From Desulfosudis oleivorans (lineage in GTDB: Bacteria; Desulfobacterota; Desulfobacteria; Desulfobacterales; SURF-7): 64,000 nt of DNA. Made by a program: the position numbers and the translations under genes. Where the stretch lies: the NCBI GenBank assembly GCA_020723325.1, contig DYJD01000013.1, positions 62,001 through 126,000 on the forward strand, in the 5' to 3' direction. The notes under the pieces are model-generated. The model searched no databases. It was not told the DNA's origin and saw only the letters and a list, made by a program, of their open reading frames with translations. Positions 48,704 to 60,616 of the stretch are shown here, piece after piece (the stretch's first letter is position 1; each line of letters starts with the position of its first letter).

Positions 48704-48780
<77 letters not shown>

Positions 48781-48789
48781 ACGAATTCA

Positions 48790-48933: not shown

Positions 48934-49992
48934 TCAAACAAAGTTTTTAACATTATTTAGCTCCAACAAAGTCATTACTTCTTCTGTGCCGGTATAATTC
49001 CCTTCAACGTAAATCTCAGTTGTGCTTTGTCTCTGATGGCGGAGAACCTGTTGAACTTTTTTCAATCCGATTTTTTGAAGGTCATTTAGGTATTTGGCAA
49101 CAGTATGCCGGATATCATGATATTCAAAAGGTTCAACCCCTGCTCCGGAACACAATTTTTTCAATAACTTTCTTCTCTCGTCATAAGGTTTTCCGTAATA
49201 TTTACTCTTGGGATTCATATGACAAAAAACATAAGGGCTGCTTGGATGTCGATTAGCCCATTGCCATTTCAGTTGCTTAAACAAATCGTCATTCATCCAA
49301 AGTTTTGCGTATCGCATTTCACCACTCTTGTTTTTTTTCGATCCGAGCCTTATCCATCGTTCTTCAAAATTTATATCGTCCGCCCAAGTCCATCTGAGGA
49401 TTTCGCTTTTTCTGCCGCCTGTGTGCCAGTATGATGCCACTAACACACGATCATGGCCTTGAGCCATCAAAATGACTTTTAGGATGTCCTGTATCGGTAT
49501 GAGTCGTCTGGCCTTTTTTGAGTGGGATTTTTTTCTAATAGGTGCCGTTGGATCGTGCATAATACCGTACATGTCCTGGACCCATCGGAAAAATGCCTTC
49601 AAATTTTTCCTATCTTTATTTGCTGCGTTATTGCTTACAGTTTTTGCTCGCTCGTTGATGAATTCGAGAACCAAAGCCGGATTTATATCTGTGAAAGGTA
49701 TGTCGGATACTTTATCATAAAATCGTTTAATGCAATTGAGCTTTTCATCAAATGTTTTTTTACTGAAATTAATTTTACAATCAGCAAGGTACGTCTGTGA
49801 CAAATCCCATAGTGATTTAAGTGAGTCAGCGTTCGAAGAAGATTTCTGTGGCTGGTTTTTCAACCTTGCCTTTTCTTGGTTTATCCATTGACGCGCCTCG
49901 TCCTTGTACCGAAAAAATCCCTTCGCGCTTATTCTCTGCCCGTTGATCATGAATTCCGCTCGATAACCCCATTCTGTTTTCCAGATACTCAT
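48934..49992 (-). CDS. int: Tyrosine-type site-specific integrase
   Basis: A 352-residue tyrosine recombinase. The catalytic set is visible: R in HTGGRKSEILRW, HxxR in HDIRHTVAKYL, H/R in LRHQRQSTTEIY with the nucleophile Y in TEIYVEGNY. An N-terminal arm-binding part (WGYRAEFMINGQRISAKGF) and SAM-like core-binding domain precede it. The ATG at 49992 is preferred over 50028 because AAGGG lies about 7 bases upstream. It points at tRNA-Asp. Confidence 0.92.
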   Translation of the reverse strand: MSIWKTEWGYRAEFMINGQRISAKGFFRYKDEARQWINQEKARLKNQPQKSSSNADSLKSLWDLSQTYLADCKINFSKKTFDEKLNCIKRFYDKVSDIPFTDINPALVLEFINERAKTVSNNAANKDRKNLKAFFRWVQDMYGIMHDPTAPIRKKSHSKKARRLIPIQDILKVILMAQGHDRVLVASYWHTGGRKSEILRWTWADDINFEERWIRLGSKKNKSGEMRYAKLWMNDDLFKQLKWQWANRHPSSPYVFCHMNPKSKYYGKPYDERRKLLKKLCSGAGVEPFEYHDIRHTVAKYLNDLQKIGLKKVQQVLRHQRQSTTEIYVEGNYTGTEEVMTLLELNNVKNFV

Positions 49993-50149
49993 ATAGTGCC
50001 CTTTTAGTAGTACGCCAAGATCCTCCAATTTTAATAGCTGGGATCAAATTGCGGCGCATCAGAGACCGAACAGTTCCCGCCTTTAAGGATAGTTCTGCCG
50101 CAACTTGCTCTGGAGTTAATATGTTATTATTATCGTTAGTCACTGTCAA
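49826..50149 (-). CDS. Excisionase-like helix-turn-helix protein
   Basis: A 107-residue protein with an HTH_17/MerR-like DNA-binding domain in its first 60 residues (LTPEQVAAELSLKAGTVRSL, IPAIKIGGSWRTTKRALYEYL). It probably directs excision or controls int. The frame runs on 167 bases into the integrase gene in another frame; the overlapping tail is basic and unlike known excisionases. Confidence 0.8.
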   Translation of the reverse strand: MTVTNDNNNILTPEQVAAELSLKAGTVRSLMRRNLIPAIKIGGSWRTTKRALYEYLENRMGLSSGIHDQRAENKREGIFSVQGRGASMDKPRKGKVEKPATEIFFER

Positions 50150-50336: not shown

Positions 50337-52265
50337 CTACTTAATAACCTCATTCAAATCCTTTATATTACCCCACCTACAACCCCATATAGTTGTTTTC
50401 ACTTTCGGCCTCAGTTCAGGGAAAAACTCTTGAACGGCTTGGATCATCAAACGCTTGGTTAATTTCACCACCGTCTTAATCTGATCCTTGGGTGCTTCAA
50501 AAACATAGGCGTCGTGCATTGGTATCAGGAGGGCTGCATCATATTGGCGGTACAATTGATCGAGTCTATTCCCGGTCATTTTGAATATGGCAGCGACAGA
50601 ACCCTGGATTGTATGACTCAGCAGTCCAATTTCCCCTCGATTATCTTGAGTCCCTTTTTCACTTCTGTATCGGTGAAGGTTAGTAATGGTTGATGAATAA
50701 CCACGTTCCAAAAAAATCTGCTTAGCTGCCCTCATGTTTTTATGTAGCTGTGGGAATTTTTTTTCGAACCACAGCATAAGATTTTCGGCCTCACTAATGG
50801 AACAATTCAATTCCTGAGCAAGTCCATATTGTGTCATTCCATTTATGATTGCGAGGGTGCAGGTTTTCATTTGGTCTCGATACTTAGGATATTTTTCCCG
50901 GAATTTTTTGTCAGATAGTTCGAGCGATTCTTTCGATAAATGTTCCCTATAGAATTCCTTTGCTACGGCTATGAATAGGTCCCCCTTGTTGTATAAATTG
51001 ATTAGGTTGTGGTCTTTATAAATGGCCCCAGCAATACCAAGTTCGTTTTGAGACCAGTCACATTCAGCAATCAGTTTCCCTTTGGATGCAACAACAACAG
51101 GGCGAAGGTATCCCGGCCATGCAATAATGTTAGCCCCCCTGCTTGCTACTCTTGCTGATGAGACTGCAATTTGGTGGTATTCGGGGTGGATTCGGTTATC
51201 AATTCCGACTAAGAAGTTCCATTTATTCAGGTATTTTTTTTCTATATCATCTAACCGCCCCGCCTTGATGAAATACGATATGCTCTTGTGGCGTTTGATA
51301 TGCTGTTTTAAAAAAGCTCGCTCAAATGAATAGCAGCCTTCTTTTTGATTGAATAACGGCAACAATCCCTTCTTGTAAAAAAATTGATACAGTTCGGGAT
51401 CAGTGGGCGGAACAGACAATCCATGTTTGCTAAATATTGGTTTCAGTTTTTCTTTGGCCTTATCGCATCTGTTTATTATTTCGTCGGCCAGATTTCGGTC
51501 ATAGCCAATCCCGTTCCACTCCATACGTGCAATGGTTTTAACAAAGGGCATTTCGATATTGATTATGTGATTTAGAATTCCGAGGTTTGCGGCTTCCCTT
51601 ACCTGAAATGGATATAGTTGGGCTATCCGGTTTGCGTCCTGAACCAAATCGTGTTTCTGCTCATTTGTTAACCGATCTGTATGTGTAATAGATTCTTTAA
51701 TATTCGAATCATCACTAAAAGAAATTCCGGTCTTAAAGCATTGTATTTTCAGGGAGCATTCAAGATTGTAGTTGTATTCAGAGTTTTCGTCAGGTCGCTT
51801 TTGATGATGCCGCCCGATAATGGAAGCCTTGGCGTATATATAAGTATCCCACACTGTCCTTGGTGCCGGTATGTTCTGTTTCGAAAGGTAAAAAAGGATC
51901 GGCTTCAAATCATGTCCAACAAAACAGATCGGCAGGCCCAACAGCGAACGGATTGAGCGACGAATTTTCTTTTTCCGTAAATCAGCAATAAAGCGATGGT
52001 ATATCGGTTTCTGGTTAATGGGATGCTCTACGATGACTATGGCGAGGAAGATCGGCTGTATTGATCGTATATCGCCCGCTATCTTCATGTTCGATATTGT
52101 TTCCCGATTAAAGGAATACAACAGATCAAGGCTAATATGCGATACAGGTCGACTAAAGGCGATTTGCAGCATCTTCTTGCAGGTCTTGGCTGAATGAATG
52201 TATTTGACATGGCAGACCTTTCGCTTCAGGATAAATTTTTGATGCTTTTTCTGACCTTTTCCCAT
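50337..52265 (-). CDS. Divergent family A DNA polymerase
   Basis: A 642-residue PolA-type polymerase. Motif A is CDWSQNELG (D403, E408), motif B is spread as RDQMKTCTLAIINGMTQYG (R463, K467, Y480) and motif C reads PMHDAYVFE (D585), with Ala where most family members have Glu after the Asp. The N-terminal third resembles a DnaQ-type exonuclease (VGHDLKPILFYL, VWDTYIYAK), but its first motif SLDLLYSF lacks the D-x-E pair, so proofreading may be lost. It is shorter than Pol I and has no 5' nuclease domain. It lies downstream of the helicase gene in the leftward replication arm. Confidence 0.85.
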   Translation of the reverse strand: MGKGQKKHQKFILKRKVCHVKYIHSAKTCKKMLQIAFSRPVSHISLDLLYSFNRETISNMKIAGDIRSIQPIFLAIVIVEHPINQKPIYHRFIADLRKKKIRRSIRSLLGLPICFVGHDLKPILFYLSKQNIPAPRTVWDTYIYAKASIIGRHHQKRPDENSEYNYNLECSLKIQCFKTGISFSDDSNIKESITHTDRLTNEQKHDLVQDANRIAQLYPFQVREAANLGILNHIINIEMPFVKTIARMEWNGIGYDRNLADEIINRCDKAKEKLKPIFSKHGLSVPPTDPELYQFFYKKGLLPLFNQKEGCYSFERAFLKQHIKRHKSISYFIKAGRLDDIEKKYLNKWNFLVGIDNRIHPEYHQIAVSSARVASRGANIIAWPGYLRPVVVASKGKLIAECDWSQNELGIAGAIYKDHNLINLYNKGDLFIAVAKEFYREHLSKESLELSDKKFREKYPKYRDQMKTCTLAIINGMTQYGLAQELNCSISEAENLMLWFEKKFPQLHKNMRAAKQIFLERGYSSTITNLHRYRSEKGTQDNRGEIGLLSHTIQGSVAAIFKMTGNRLDQLYRQYDAALLIPMHDAYVFEAPKDQIKTVVKLTKRLMIQAVQEFFPELRPKVKTTIWGCRWGNIKDLNEVIK

Positions 52266-52360: not shown

Positions 52361-54202
52361 CTATTTCCAGTATCGTTGAACGGTTCTTTCGCTGATTCCC
52401 ATACGTTCCGCTATTTGCTTTTGCGTTAATCCGGATTCCTTTAAATTCTGTATCTCTTTTAAGCGTCTACTGCCTTCAAATTCCCTTCTTGTTGATATGT
52501 TGAAATAATTACGTGCTTCATCAATGCATATGAATTCCTTTGTGTATTCGATTTGGGGATGGGCATTGCATTGAAACGTGATAACTTCCCTTGGTTTGGT
52601 ATATGGCCTGATTCTTCCAACGGCCTGCAAGACAACATCCATTTCGAGTTGATTCAAGGCCATCGGAGCAAGGTAATTGATGTTATAGAAACGATCCTTA
52701 TAGTGTTCGACATGGGCGGTACGACGCAATGGCAAACCCTCGGCACTGATCTTTACCGGAATCTTAAAATCGGTGGCGTATATATCTTGAAGGATGGTGT
52801 CGATTATTTCGGTGTTAATATAGTACCCAGTGAGACAGAAGGCGCAGTCAAAATCCTCGAACTTATTAATGCCAATCACTCCGTAGTTAATGATTGGGAT
52901 AAGGGTAACATCGGATAGTTTGGTTTTTTTGTCCACAGTCTCCACACGATGCCGATCCAACCCAAAATGAGGGAGCCTGTCATTTAGCTCTTTGATGCAT
53001 AACGGGATGAATATTTTCTTGGCGATTAGGAGAACTCGCTTGCCTTGATTAATCCGTTTGATGATAAGCTGGGCGAAGAAATCAAGAATCTGGGTGGAAT
53101 TGTTTTTGAAATAGACACGAGCACCGAGTCTTGAGGCGATGTTGAACCATTTTGTTTCTGGGTGGGTGAAAGTATAATTTTCGAATGGGCTGGCTATATC
53201 TGGAAGGCGGAGGCGGTATCGGATAAATTCGTCATAGCCAGTGCCAGAGAAAACCATCAGATCCGTTTTTATGAAAGGATGGACGGCAAATGAAATATCC
53301 CCACTATCAAGCCTTTCACGCGAGCGGATGGTTGAAAATGGAAAAATTGACAGGTCGTATCCAATATATTTAAATTTAACACCAAACATGAGACTGCCGG
53401 TTTTCTGTATTTTCGCTGCTACCTTGGGTGACATGGAGGGCATTTTTAGCTGCAATGTTCTTAAATCTGACGTTGTGCTTGAGAGGAGATGAGTACAGTT
53501 CTTTTCCCAATTTTTCAGATTGCTGGCTTCTATGGATAGATTTGCAATTACCTGAATGAAACGCTCAATATCTAACCTGTGAATGACCCTGCTGAATGAT
53601 TTCATTAGGAAGTTGTCTTCGTCGATGATGGTCAAGACTGTGGTAGCTTTCGTCCATTTTTTCAATTGCTGTAAAAAGACTGGCGATCTTTCCAGATGCG
53701 CTTGTGTTGCAAAGATAACTCGTGTCCCTTCTAGCTTTTTTCCATACTGATCCGGCCAGAAACAGCTTTGATATTTAGGGCAAGATTTACAAATTTCATT
53801 TCGTCCAAGTAAACCTAAACCTTTCGATTCATATTGTTTCCATTGTTGGTTCAGTAATTTACCGCATTGCTTGACTGGTCTCGGTTTCAACACAACCACC
53901 TTGATATCATCGGGTGGATTCTTGACATAAGCCCGTTCACGGATAATTTTTTTTGTCGGAGCCAGAAGAATAACCAAGTCATATAAAAAATGCGTAGCGA
54001 CGAATTCGATGATCCGGTCAATGGTGTGGCTTTTCCCAACACCGATAGCCCATTTTACAATCATATTGCCCGCGTATTGCTTCAGTAGGGCAAGCAAGGT
54101 GGGGGCCTCCCCCCAAGATTGGCGGAAGGCCCTTAGTTGCGATGGATTAGCAATGCTATGCCGCATCGTCATCCTCTTCGGTTTTGCTGTTACCGATTTC
54201 AT
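52361..54202 (-). CDS. XPD/DinG-like SF2 helicase with FeS-type cysteines and a C-terminal HTH
   Basis: A 613-residue protein. Walker A is WAIGVGKSHT (about 51-60), the DExx box is IIDEDN (192-197), and four cysteines (C113, C138, C141, C147; ICKSCPKYQSC) lie between them, placed as in the 4Fe-4S domain of XPD/DinG helicases. Motif VI is QAVGRIRPY near 550. The last 25 residues form an HTH (TQKQIAERMGISERTVQRYW), which is unusual for this class and could target it to an origin. The exact start is uncertain: Met 1, 11 and 13 all lie in a duplicated segment. Confidence 0.75.
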   Translation of the reverse strand: MKSVTAKPKRMTMRHSIANPSQLRAFRQSWGEAPTLLALLKQYAGNMIVKWAIGVGKSHTIDRIIEFVATHFLYDLVILLAPTKKIIRERAYVKNPPDDIKVVVLKPRPVKQCGKLLNQQWKQYESKGLGLLGRNEICKSCPKYQSCFWPDQYGKKLEGTRVIFATQAHLERSPVFLQQLKKWTKATTVLTIIDEDNFLMKSFSRVIHRLDIERFIQVIANLSIEASNLKNWEKNCTHLLSSTTSDLRTLQLKMPSMSPKVAAKIQKTGSLMFGVKFKYIGYDLSIFPFSTIRSRERLDSGDISFAVHPFIKTDLMVFSGTGYDEFIRYRLRLPDIASPFENYTFTHPETKWFNIASRLGARVYFKNNSTQILDFFAQLIIKRINQGKRVLLIAKKIFIPLCIKELNDRLPHFGLDRHRVETVDKKTKLSDVTLIPIINYGVIGINKFEDFDCAFCLTGYYINTEIIDTILQDIYATDFKIPVKISAEGLPLRRTAHVEHYKDRFYNINYLAPMALNQLEMDVVLQAVGRIRPYTKPREVITFQCNAHPQIEYTKEFICIDEARNYFNISTRREFEGSRRLKEIQNLKESGLTQKQIAERMGISERTVQRYWK

Positions 54203-55678: not shown

Positions 55679-57304
55679 ATGAAACCAGCATTGCTATCAA
55701 AAGAGGATATAGAAAAGTTTTCTTGGATTCTATCTGATGAACCTATAGAGGTTGAAAAAAGTCTGGTAAAATATCACTTTAAATATTTAACTTCTAGTTA
55801 TGAAATACTAAATTTTGATCTTGATAGTTTATATATTAAAAAAGGACAAGTTCATGTTTCTGAAGTATTTATCGAACTACTAGATTATTTGACGAATATT
55901 ACTGATGATGAAAAAGAAGCTGAAAAATATGTAAGAAAACAAATAAAATATGTAGAATATCAGTTAGATAGATTAAATAAAAAATTTATGAGAGCTAATA
56001 CACTTATTTATACTGGTCCTATATCGGTTTATTATTTAAAACTTATAATGTGGTATCGAGAAATTAATGATAATTTCTCATTAGCTAAAACTTATCAAAG
56101 GTACATTCAGTTTTATTATGAATGTACATATAATGAGCCAGATATATTTAATGATGATTTTGATGAACTTTTCCCAGAAGAACTACAGAATTTACTATCG
56201 GATAATAATTTCCAAGTTTTTATCTACAGTCCGCAATTGATGGATTGTATTACTAAAGCAATGGTTTATGCCGATGATTCTGAGCCAGTGCTGATATATG
56301 GCGAAACGGGCACTGGAAAAGAACTTATCGCAAAAATTATTCATTATTTTAGTAAAAGATTTGATAATAATTTTAAGGCCATAAATTGTACTGCTATTTC
56401 TGAAACATTATTTGAATCAGAAATATTTGGGGTTATATCAGGGGCAGCTACAGACGTAAAAACAAGGTTAGGAGCATTTTTAAGTGCATGTGGAAATGCG
56501 AATGTTTTAAACAAAAAAGGATATAGAATCGAGTCAGATGGTAAAGAAAGAAAAATAAAATTTTTTGAAGATGGAAAGGAGATTCCATATCATAAAAGAC
56601 CAGATCCTAAATATTTAAAAAAAATTAGTGGCACTTTGTTTCTTGATGAAATTAATTCAATACCAAATTCATTTCAGGCAAAATTACTAAGAGTAATTCA
56701 AGAAAATGAGTTACAAGTAATTGGGGAAGATATAACGAGACCTTTTAGTGTCAAAATAATTTGTGCAATTAATCGAAAAATTGAAGATATTAATGCAGAT
56801 CATGAAAAATTTAGAAAAGATCTCTATTATAGAATTAACAAGGGATATATTGAATTACCCCCTTTAAGAGATTTATTAGAGGAATTCCCATTAATAGTAA
56901 AGTATAAGCTGAATCAAATTTCAGATGAAATAAATAGTGGGAAAAAAATACGCATAGATAATAAGGCAATAAAAAAGCTTCAAAGATACTCTTGGCCTGG
57001 AAATTTTAGGGAACTTGAAAATGTATTATACAGATCTGCAAAAGCTGTGTCTATAGAAAACAGAACTGTAATCGTTTATAATGACATTGAAGAGCTTGAT
57101 CAAATTACTCAAGAAAAAATTATCAATATTGATGATAAATTTCTAAACAAAAGTTATGATGAAGTAGAAAAAGAGTATATGGAATATTTATTTGGTAAGG
57201 CAAATGGAAATATTTCGAAAGTTGTCCGTTTAGGAAGATTTAAAAATAAGAGTCCAGTGTACAGGATTCTACGAAAGCATTCAATAATACCACCAAAAAA
57301 ATGA
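55679..57304 (+). CDS. Sigma-54-type AAA+ regulator lacking the GAFTGA loop
   Basis: A 541-residue protein. An all-helical N-terminal region of about 190 residues is unlike known receiver, GAF or PAS domains. The AAA+ domain has Walker A GETGTGKE (208-215), Walker B GTLFLDEIN (318-326) and the arginine-finger block FRKDLYYRIN (378-387). Where bacterial enhancer-binding proteins have GAFTGA, this one reads ISGAATDV (253-260), followed by an insert of about 45 residues (270-315). A Fis-like HTH ends the protein. Because GAFTGA makes the contact with sigma-54, this protein is probably not a normal sigma-54 activator. Codons are very AT-rich compared with the chromosome. Confidence 0.85.
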   Translation: MKPALLSKEDIEKFSWILSDEPIEVEKSLVKYHFKYLTSSYEILNFDLDSLYIKKGQVHVSEVFIELLDYLTNITDDEKEAEKYVRKQIKYVEYQLDRLNKKFMRANTLIYTGPISVYYLKLIMWYREINDNFSLAKTYQRYIQFYYECTYNEPDIFNDDFDELFPEELQNLLSDNNFQVFIYSPQLMDCITKAMVYADDSEPVLIYGETGTGKELIAKIIHYFSKRFDNNFKAINCTAISETLFESEIFGVISGAATDVKTRLGAFLSACGNANVLNKKGYRIESDGKERKIKFFEDGKEIPYHKRPDPKYLKKISGTLFLDEINSIPNSFQAKLLRVIQENELQVIGEDITRPFSVKIICAINRKIEDINADHEKFRKDLYYRINKGYIELPPLRDLLEEFPLIVKYKLNQISDEINSGKKIRIDNKAIKKLQRYSWPGNFRELENVLYRSAKAVSIENRTVIVYNDIEELDQITQEKIINIDDKFLNKSYDEVEKEYMEYLFGKANGNISKVVRLGRFKNKSPVYRILRKHSIIPPKK

Positions 57305-57607: not shown

Positions 57608-60600
57608 ATGAAAATTACCGAAATGATCACTGCATTATGGAACAAAGAAAATCCAAAGGCAACTTACGCAACAGAAATTGAGAGGAAAACGCATCATTTT
57701 GAAACACTAATCGAATGTGCCGAATTTATCAGATCTCACAATGTACTTACTTACGCTCAAAGGGATAACAAGAAGGCACCAAAAAACAAAGAAACAGGCG
57801 ATAAGCTCTACATCGGTAGTCATATGCTTCAAATTGATCTTGATACGGATATGGATTACGAGGATTTAGCACAACGATTCATTAAACATAAATTTAAAGG
57901 ATTTTTCTTTGCTACAACTGCTCTATATGAGAGGCGAGAGCGAAGAGCAAGAATTTTCATTGTAACAAAAGATATCATTCCGCTCGATTACCAGACTAAA
58001 TTTTATGCCCAACAAGTATTAGTGAAAATGGGATACGGAAATGAAGTTATAAAGAAAATTGATGGCCATGCTTACAATACTTCCGCATATTTCGCTAAAG
58101 TATGGGACAAAGTTGACGGGAAATGGGTTGTTCCAGATAATTATGACAAATACGGCAAATCGCTTTATGTCTTTGATGATGGAGATCCTTTTGAATGGAC
58201 ATCGCAATCAGAATACCAAATCAAAATTGCAAAAACTAAAAATAAACATAAAAAGTCTACTATCCGGAATGCTGCTCAATACGGCAAATTAGGTGATTTG
58301 GCAGTTGAAATGTTATCATATAAACATGTCGAATCAACTACAGCACGAGATAACGGCACTGTTTCGCTCACTTTCCATAATATTAAAGAACGGACAAAAG
58401 GCGGCTATTTTATCAATCCCACTTCGAATCCTTGGCTTTTATCTCATCCAAACCATGAAAAAACCGTTAAATATATGAACAAGATCTTAGGTAAAAAGGA
58501 CTTCGCTTGCTATAGAAAATTCATAAAAAAATTCGATAAAGAGAATCCATTAACAGAGCGGCAAAAACCAGATCTCGTATTGCCGGAAGGACAACAATAT
58601 CTTAATCCCGGAATATTTGACCACCCCCACCCCTTTATAGTCATAGAGAGCGGCACAAACACAGGCAAAACTACCCAAATCGCGGAATACTTAAAAAACA
58701 ATTCTGATACTGTTTTGATCATAAGCGTTAACAGGACACAGGCAATTTTGACCTATAATTATCTCCAACAAAGAGATATAGATTTTGAAAAGTACATACA
58801 GCATATCGGTGAACCAGGCGCAAGATTAACCAGGGACGGGTATGTTGAATCCAAATACGTCCAAGATGCTCGAAAAGGCATTGCTCCCGACCGCCTTATC
58901 TGCAACATTCTCAGCCTTCATCACCTGTTCCAAAAACGTAAATTGATCAAAACATACCAAAGCATCATTATAGACGAAATCACCACCCTCCCTTCATCCG
59001 CCATCAATACAGTCGATTTAGTAATGGAACACGAAAACCGATTCTATGACGACCTCTACGTTTTGGGCCTATTATTGCGAAAAGCCGAAAAGATCATTGT
59101 AACGGACGGCTTTGTCTCAAATTCAGTCATTAAGGCAATTTCAAAAATATCAAAAAAGCGCCCATTCTTCATCAAAAACCCTTATCAAACAAAGAAAAGG
59201 GTGGATATTTTTGTTTCAGACAGTCGCACCCAACCCAATTTCCAGAACCCAAACGACGTCACCTGCAAACAATTCATGACATTATTAAACAAAGATCTAT
59301 CAGTCCCAATACCAGAAGGCAGACTGATCCCTATTGCTTGTTCCCTAAAAGATCAAGCCGAACAACTAAAAAGCTACATAAATATAAACTATCCAGATAA
59401 AAAGGTCTTAATCATAACGGCAGACATCGAAAAAGAAGACAATAAAAGCATCGTAGAATTAACAACTAACCTCACCCACCACCTAAAAAGAGACAAAATC
59501 GACGTTCTTATCTATTCCCCTACCATTATCACGGCCATAGATATCCCTGAAGCTAAAGGTATGAATGTTTACCACATAATGAACGAAAACGGCCTCACTT
59601 CCCACTCCCACTACCAAATGACGATGCGGGGAAGAAACGCAAATAGATACAGAGTCCTAATCCCCAAATTGCTCTTCACCAAAAAGCCATCATCCCCCCC
59701 AGAAGAACAAATACAATCAGGTCTTTTCAATATATACGAAACCCTCAAATTCCGCGGTACCAATCCCCATGATCTAGTACATTATTGCATTAAAAAAGAA
59801 AACCTCGCTATGGGTTCAGCACTCCTTTGGCTTTGGTTAAATAAACTAGACAAAAGCACTCTCCCTAGACGTACTTTCAAAAACTCGCTAAAAAACCACA
59901 CCCTAATCCCCAATCTACTCCCATCCCTCAATATACCAGTCTTAAACACAGCCATACAACTCGAATTGGCTTTTATCGACTACAGAAATTACGACAGACA
60001 ACACAGTACAGCCCAACAATATATCAACATACTCAATTACGAAGGATGCAAGGTCACAGTTAGAGAGGACATAACCCAAAAACAATACAAATACGAAAAA
60101 TCAGATTACTCCAAACAATATAAACACAAAATTAGAAAAATCCTAAATTACAAAGGCAAATTGAATGGTAATTCCCAAAATTACCTCAACAATTACCAAA
60201 AACAACTATCAACAAGCCAACGTATCATCCACACATACAAAACTAAATACAAACATGCCCCAACCAAAACCAAGACTACAGTGAAAGTCTTAAGATCTAT
60301 ATTCAAACTGTACGGATTCACATTCACAACACCCAAACACATATTAACACGGGAGCAATGCATAGAAATTTACGAAACTCTATCAAACCAACTATTAGAA
60401 CTAGAAAAAAATATCAGTACCCTCTTTCCTCCTTATATAACTTCCAATAATGTTAAATTCAGAAGGGTATTTAAACTGCTTTCTTTGTTCTTTATTGTCA
60501 AAAATCACCAGAAATCACTTAAAATAAATATAAACATGAAATTATTAAGAAGTATCAGAAAACCTAGGAAAGTCCATTTAGATGCTTTATACATGATTAA

Positions 60601-60616
60601 CCATAGAAAATTGTAA
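57608..60616 (+). CDS. Primase-like / UL9-like helicase fusion (putative replication initiator)
   Basis: A 1002-residue protein. Residues about 40-170 resemble an archaeo-eukaryotic primase core: MLQIDLDTD (D77, D79), FFFATTALYERRERRARIFIV and IDGHAYNTSAYF. From about 340 to 700 it is an SF2 helicase like herpesvirus origin-binding protein UL9: ESGTNTGKT (347-355), IIIDEI (453-458), IIVTDGF, a SPTIITAIDI motif and QMTMRGRNANRY. The C-terminal 250 residues are Lys/Asn/Tyr-rich and unrecognised. The combination suggests origin opening and priming by one protein. The primase assignment is weaker than the helicase. The start has a strong AAGGAGG. Confidence 0.75.
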   Translation: MKITEMITALWNKENPKATYATEIERKTHHFETLIECAEFIRSHNVLTYAQRDNKKAPKNKETGDKLYIGSHMLQIDLDTDMDYEDLAQRFIKHKFKGFFFATTALYERRERRARIFIVTKDIIPLDYQTKFYAQQVLVKMGYGNEVIKKIDGHAYNTSAYFAKVWDKVDGKWVVPDNYDKYGKSLYVFDDGDPFEWTSQSEYQIKIAKTKNKHKKSTIRNAAQYGKLGDLAVEMLSYKHVESTTARDNGTVSLTFHNIKERTKGGYFINPTSNPWLLSHPNHEKTVKYMNKILGKKDFACYRKFIKKFDKENPLTERQKPDLVLPEGQQYLNPGIFDHPHPFIVIESGTNTGKTTQIAEYLKNNSDTVLIISVNRTQAILTYNYLQQRDIDFEKYIQHIGEPGARLTRDGYVESKYVQDARKGIAPDRLICNILSLHHLFQKRKLIKTYQSIIIDEITTLPSSAINTVDLVMEHENRFYDDLYVLGLLLRKAEKIIVTDGFVSNSVIKAISKISKKRPFFIKNPYQTKKRVDIFVSDSRTQPNFQNPNDVTCKQFMTLLNKDLSVPIPEGRLIPIACSLKDQAEQLKSYININYPDKKVLIITADIEKEDNKSIVELTTNLTHHLKRDKIDVLIYSPTIITAIDIPEAKGMNVYHIMNENGLTSHSHYQMTMRGRNANRYRVLIPKLLFTKKPSSPPEEQIQSGLFNIYETLKFRGTNPHDLVHYCIKKENLAMGSALLWLWLNKLDKSTLPRRTFKNSLKNHTLIPNLLPSLNIPVLNTAIQLELAFIDYRNYDRQHSTAQQYINILNYEGCKVTVREDITQKQYKYEKSDYSKQYKHKIRKILNYKGKLNGNSQNYLNNYQKQLSTSQRIIHTYKTKYKHAPTKTKTTVKVLRSIFKLYGFTFTTPKHILTREQCIEIYETLSNQLLELEKNISTLFPPYITSNNVKFRRVFKLLSLFFIVKNHQKSLKININMKLLRSIRKPRKVHLDALYMINHRKL

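Follow-up and report, generated by a model that had tools for sequence, protein, structure and literature searches.

Can a single polypeptide both open a replication origin and lay the first primer on it? The question is raised by a gene at positions 57608..60616 on the forward strand of the 64,000-nucleotide stretch analyzed here (the window), for which the original prediction proposed a primase-like domain fused to a UL9-like helicase. Such a polypeptide would represent a very compact replication starter kit. The open reading frame runs for 1002 codons from an ATG preceded by a Shine-Dalgarno sequence (AAGGAGG), the opposite strand is full of stops, and the gene is present as a single copy in the host genome. 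The gene is intact and all quoted motifs were located in the translation (P0001): IDLD (residues 76-79), RRERRAR (109-115), DGH (152-154), GTNTGKT (Walker A, 349-355), IIIDEI (DExx, 453-458, acidic pair 456-457) and QMTMRGR (motif VI, 670-676). The closest relative, and the sole close one in the genomes searched, is a protein of Desulfamplus magnetovallimortis (G045 / NZ_LT828567.1) with 36% identity over P0001 residues 3-964, whose gene runs off a contig end. The genome of this relative falls in the same order as the host, Desulfobacterales. D77, D79, R113, R115, D152, the P-loop residues G353 and K354, D456-E457 and QMTMRGR are identical in the two proteins, which raises the quoted motifs above chance at this level of overall identity. 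Searches of phages and plasmids by tblastn and single-sequence scans of viral and genome contigs with P0001 yielded no relative. The relative's contig also encodes, beside SSB- and recombination-like genes, a 558-aa protein without a significant Pfam match (L007:3520-5196, reverse strand) whose sequence resembles that of a reduced family-A polymerase (YDLSAS, HDG).

By profile comparison, the helicase of P0001 is UL9-like and is linked to UL9 indirectly through the CyRepA1 family. Its core spans residues about 336-690 (58613..59677, + strand) and contains the Walker A, DExx and motif VI sequences of SF2 helicases, with key residues kept in the relative. Residues 343-697 match phrog_4913, annotated as 'replication' (E 7e-20), and residues 344-686 match the CyRepA1 model NF042913 (E 4.9e-26) with 91.8 bits, which is under the curated cut-off of 200; the D. 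magnetovallimortis homologue reaches 79.9 bits, also under this cut-off. An hhalign comparison of the P0001 helicase with seven CyRepA1/N15-type proteins gave an E-value of 1.3e-21. When the profile of these seven proteins was compared with all PDB chains, UL9 came first (E 4e-15) with UvrB far behind (E 4e-5), and the best chains (9hgj, 9hgi, 9zgf and 9vjh) are named replication origin-binding protein. One family member, the Rep protein of a P. aeruginosa phage-plasmid, exceeds the Pfam cut-off for Herpes_ori_bp (PF02399); this model has no direct match to the helicase part of P0001 at E-values up to 10. Since the family profile finds UL9 first and one member passes PF02399, the proposed relation to SF2 origin-binding helicases of the UL9 kind is borne out, though indirectly. 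Matches to phrog_4913 in 22 of 117 related genomes were considered as further fusions and rejected, as most hit the Toprim part of the model (two were checked) and represent other primases.

Judged by profile comparison, residues ~33-169 of P0001 (57704..58114, + strand) are homologous to archaeo-eukaryotic primase (AEP) domains found in plasmid and phage proteins. Sequence comparison of the N-terminus with Pfam, PHROG and PDB gave nothing meaningful, and profile searches of PDB sequences with it and with an AEP profile (A6) returned nothing. A 4-sequence AEP profile found no match in 241 related genomes, a result that is uninformative alone. The N-terminus of the Leptospira phage LE1 protein did not by itself give a significant comparison (P 0.25), and a larger AEP set was needed. 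Beginning with the LE1 protein, we assembled a set of AEPs from plasmid, phage and IMG/VR sequences. These are classed as AEPs by their motifs, by a PriCT-2 annotation in several cases and by a published description of such proteins (PMC5862659); neither Pfam nor PDB sequences gave a significant match to them. The N-terminal alignment of P0001 and its relative, compared by hhalign with 14 of these AEPs, scored 38.8 (P 5e-5), against at most 24.4 for column shuffles and 11.7-18.5 for the reversed query and other parts of P0001. Against 29 AEPs, the score rose to 48.6 (P 5.7e-7, probability 92), above all 300 query column shuffles (maximum 22.2), which supports the predicted AEP relationship of the N-terminus.

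The AEP-like domain keeps its metal-binding acids and appears altered at two positions thought to hold the nucleotide. Motif I of the AEP superfamily (hhhDhD) is present as LQIDLD, with the metal-binding D77-x-D79 (57836..57844, + strand) on an Asp pair found in the relative and in all 28 family members covering it. The motif III aspartate D152 (58061..58063, + strand) is likewise shared by all 29 family members and the relative. T103-T104 and Y107, in the motif II region T103-T104-A-L-Y107 (57914..57928, + strand), align with a TTxSH block, and R113-A-R115 (57944..57952, + strand) aligns with a [KR]xR strand in which the position of R115 is Arg, and that of R113 Arg or Lys, in 29 of 29 members. 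The RRERRAR strand quoted in the original prediction is thus family-wide at R115, with R or K at 113, and only R110, R113 and R115 are common to P0001 and its relative. Both halves of the predicted primase-helicase fusion are supported by profile comparison, and one of its proposed motifs was discarded: the D-x-H block lacks conservation at H154 (D. magnetovallimortis has D-S-S), and the motif II position is in fact Tyr107. The His at this position, characteristic of the All3500-like family and found in 28 of 29 members, is replaced by Tyr in both P0001 and the relative. Further downstream, Ala160 (58085..58087, + strand; Ser in the relative) aligns with an Arg present in 27 of 29 members, although the alignment is less certain there. 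Its place downstream of motif III indicates that this is probably the motif IV Arg, which is invariant in the PrimPol-PV1 supergroup. To our knowledge, the loss of both the motif II His and the motif IV Arg has no precedent. The replacement of two likely nucleotide-binding positions makes primase activity of P0001 doubtful, while the retention of D77, D79 and D152 would be compatible with an altered but active enzyme.

Structure prediction of the N-terminus agrees with an AEP core without proving an AEP fold. An AlphaFold run on residues 1-335 from two sequences only was unusable (pLDDT 38). With a 20-row alignment including AEPs, a weak model was obtained (pLDDT 57, pTM 0.47, with pLDDT of ~65-80 between residues 70 and 150) in which elements follow the order strand(DxD)-helix-strand-strand-helix. 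Foldseek placed the AEP domain of cyanophage S-2L PrimPol second for this model (E 0.03) with the highest probability in the list (0.80). VIA-align gave similar Z-scores for S-2L PrimPol (4.9, rmsd 3.1, 88 aligned), a herpes simplex virus helicase-primase chain (4.8) and an unrelated H. pylori protein (5.0). As the model is too weak to stand alone, the lack of a strong AEP structural match argues neither for nor against an AEP fold. The structural check proposed with the original prediction thus returned an element order compatible with an AEP core rather than an unrelated fold, from a model that is weak and was itself seeded with AEPs.

The remaining parts of the protein are conserved to different degrees and partly belong to a known family. 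Identity to the D. magnetovallimortis homologue is lowest in the N-terminal part (30%), reaches 42% in the helicase and is 39% for residues 201-335. The conserved middle region (residues 205-335; 58220..58612, + strand) belongs to no known family: no Pfam match covers it, and five related proteins, compared over their middle regions, do not match it. The C-terminal region (residues 691-1002; 59678..60613, + strand) lies partly within the CyRepA1 model. In the D. magnetovallimortis homologue, sequence beyond the helicase is still covered by CyRepA1, up to residue 822 of the protein and position 476 of the 595 in the model. Part of the C-terminus, originally called novel, is thus known family sequence; the rest, like residues 691-1002 taken alone, gave no significant match in profile comparison.

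The combination of an AEP with a UL9-like SF2 helicase on mobile elements is not new and was reported by Kazlauskas et al. in 2018 (PMC5862659). As described there, in All3500-like fusions, too, a primase-superfamily domain precedes an SF2 helicase whose closest resemblance is to herpesvirus UL9; their members keep the motif II His and the motif IV Arg in place of the Tyr and Ala of P0001. P0001 is a divergent variant of these fusions, and what is new in its sequence is the retention of D77, D79 and D152 combined with the change of the motif II His to Tyr107 and of the presumed motif IV Arg to Ala160. No biochemical study of an AEP/UL9-like fusion was found in the literature searched; a lineage with intact acids and altered nucleotide-binding positions makes the activity of the primase half directly testable. 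We found two more AEP fusions to UL9-type helicases, in Leptospira phage LE1 and on a Bradyrhizobium plasmid. The 985-aa LE1 protein (AGS80647, P0002) also combines clear AEP motifs, in its case VDFD, YTSISH, NRYRVIF and D, with a phrog_4913-type helicase that gives a collinear match to that of P0001 (E 1.2e-6), and differs in its canonical SxH motif II, in a Gln at the presumed motif IV Arg and in having another middle region in place of P0001 residues 205-335.

Related helicases are also joined to a different primase fold. CyRepA1 (Slr7037, NF042913) shares with P0001 the helicase family, part of the C-terminal region and the Rep function, but its N-terminus is a Toprim-related DUF3854 domain instead of an AEP and P0001 stays below the family cut-off. 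Cyanobacterial proteins match DUF3854 or Toprim Pfam models and P0001 does not. Rep proteins of this type with a Toprim-related primase domain were described in 2023 and CyRepA1 is experimentally supported as a Rep protein: in its absence, pSYSA persists only when integrated in another replicon (PMC9978351). Proteins of the phage N15 RepA type (P0003, P0006) likewise place a primase-type domain in one polypeptide with a helicase of this family, but are larger (1256-1324 aa) and carry a Toprim primase domain (P0003). N15 RepA acts as primase, helicase and origin binder. Herpesvirus UL9, whose helicase core is related through the CyRepA1 family, has no primase domain, and priming is carried out by the separate UL5-UL52-UL8 complex. 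Overall, mobile elements join UL9-type helicases to primase domains of no fewer than two unrelated folds (AEP and Toprim), and the CyRepA1 family label covers proteins with both. Further arrangements were observed among the sequences collected. Bradyrhizobium barranii plasmid pBb144S4a encodes a 706-aa CyRepA1-labelled protein (L064:3893-6010) with an AEP N-terminus and a zinc-binding-like middle (CPFHH...CSTC). A CyRepA1-family protein of Leptospira interrogans plasmid p1 (L048:2480-4831) matches LE1 residues 209-957 and has its start directly behind the position of the AEP, which suggests that the primase part is missing. In four IMG/VR sequences (L070, L077, L090 and L091), ORFs of 640-750 aa show these AEP motifs after some 470-580 residues, placing the AEP at the C-terminus with inverted domain order.

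The gene lies in an integrated element that carries an integrase and its own DNA polymerase. A 46-bp left attachment repeat (48736..48781, + strand) consists of the 3' part of tRNA-Asp (48704-48780) plus one base, and an identical copy lies 43,127 bp downstream at 91863-91908 in window numbering (L004:10363-10408), outside the window. The repeats bound a 43,127-bp element inserted in tRNA-Asp, where the left end of a low-GC stretch starts, and the window holds its left third only. Just inside the left end, the element encodes a tyrosine integrase (48934..50028, - strand; PF00589 E 1.6e-17, phrog_1 E 1e-37), followed by a family-A DNA polymerase (50337..52265, - strand; PF00476 E 5e-37) distinct from the host pol I, which gives a separate match on contig C69. 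A P-loop protein with a C-terminal HTH (52361..54202, - strand; HTH_23 E 2e-6, ResIII as a trace only) is a probable second helicase as read from its GVGKS P-loop and IIDED motif. Directly upstream of the P0001 gene lies an RtcR-like sigma-54 activator (55679..57304, + strand; PF00158 E 2e-44, RtcR_PspF2 E 3e-70). The element also contains an HU-like protein, a weak ArdC-like match and metabolic cargo. The subset of element proteins scanned has no match to phage structural families, and the surroundings of the P0001 gene showed neither iterons nor any other obvious origin. A second phage-type integrase of 231 aa inside the element (L003:9221-9916, + strand; PF00589 E 4e-30) suggests nested or decayed elements. 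Another element protein (L003:17320-18462, + strand) carries a 5-hmdU DNA kinase helical domain (PF18723 E 5e-103) and is encoded beside a radical SAM gene, possibly representing nucleotide- or DNA-modification cargo.

These observations indicate that P0001 is probably the replication initiator (Rep) of the 43-kb integrative element, opening its origin, unwinding and priming it. By sequence comparison, the locus combines an AEP-related N-terminus with three metal-binding acids, a UL9/CyRepA1-related helicase and co-located integrase, polymerase and attachment repeats; origin binding, unwinding, primer synthesis and the origin position are what we infer. Excision by the integrase would yield a circle whose origin P0001 may bind, probably via its C-terminal part. 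The UL9-like SF2 motor would then open and unwind the DNA at the expense of ATP, the AEP-like domain could lay a primer, and the element's family-A polymerase or the host replisome would extend it. The Rep function is supported by the homology of the N-terminus to plasmid and phage AEPs and of the helicase to CyRepA1/N15-type Rep proteins, by the equal architecture of the LE1 and pBb144S4a proteins and by the attachment repeats, integrase, polymerase and HU-like protein of the element. Tyr107 and Ala160, the lack of iterons and the weak, AEP-seeded model count against the Rep or priming function. Primer synthesis is the least certain step, its chances evenly balanced, because two nucleotide-binding positions are changed.

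P0001 could instead be an initiator whose AEP no longer primes and only binds DNA or a partner, with host DnaG or an RNA transcript providing the primer. We regard this as quite possible, though not the better bet. It would explain the replacement of the family's His and Arg by Tyr107 and Ala160 here and by Tyr and Ser in the relative, and it fits the N-terminus being the least conserved part of the protein. A motif IV change (R231A) abolished both primase and polymerase activity of PolpTN2. Against a loss of priming, other AEP families do without the motif II His and carry Gln or Tyr instead (PMC5862659), and P0001 and its relative retain the full set of three catalytic acids with an identity of only 30%. 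In CyRepA1-bearing pSYSA, an mRNA has been proposed as the primer (PMC9978351). More tentatively, P0001 may belong to a separate initiator lineage that keeps the AEP acids, needs neither the motif II His nor the motif IV Arg for substrate binding and has a new middle domain (residues 205-335) replacing PriCT, a reading we consider somewhat doubtful. Such a lineage would have found another way to hold the nucleotide or turned an AEP into a non-priming initiator part.

Functions other than initiation fit the data less well than a Rep protein. Many AEPs work in repair and the element contains other DNA-processing genes, as would be expected for a repair, fork-restart or recombination helicase-polymerase, but those relatives of the helicase that have been characterized act as plasmid Rep proteins and the element has its own DNA polymerase, making this role improbable. 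Still far less probable is an anti-phage defence protein carried as cargo: the gene is located on a mobile element beside an RtcR-like regulator that resembles the CARF-AAA-HTH models of PADLOC, but no PADLOC model matches P0001 and its relatives are annotated as Rep proteins. Within the AAA domain of this regulator, an insert of ~45 residues, near residues 272-317, separates two matched stretches.
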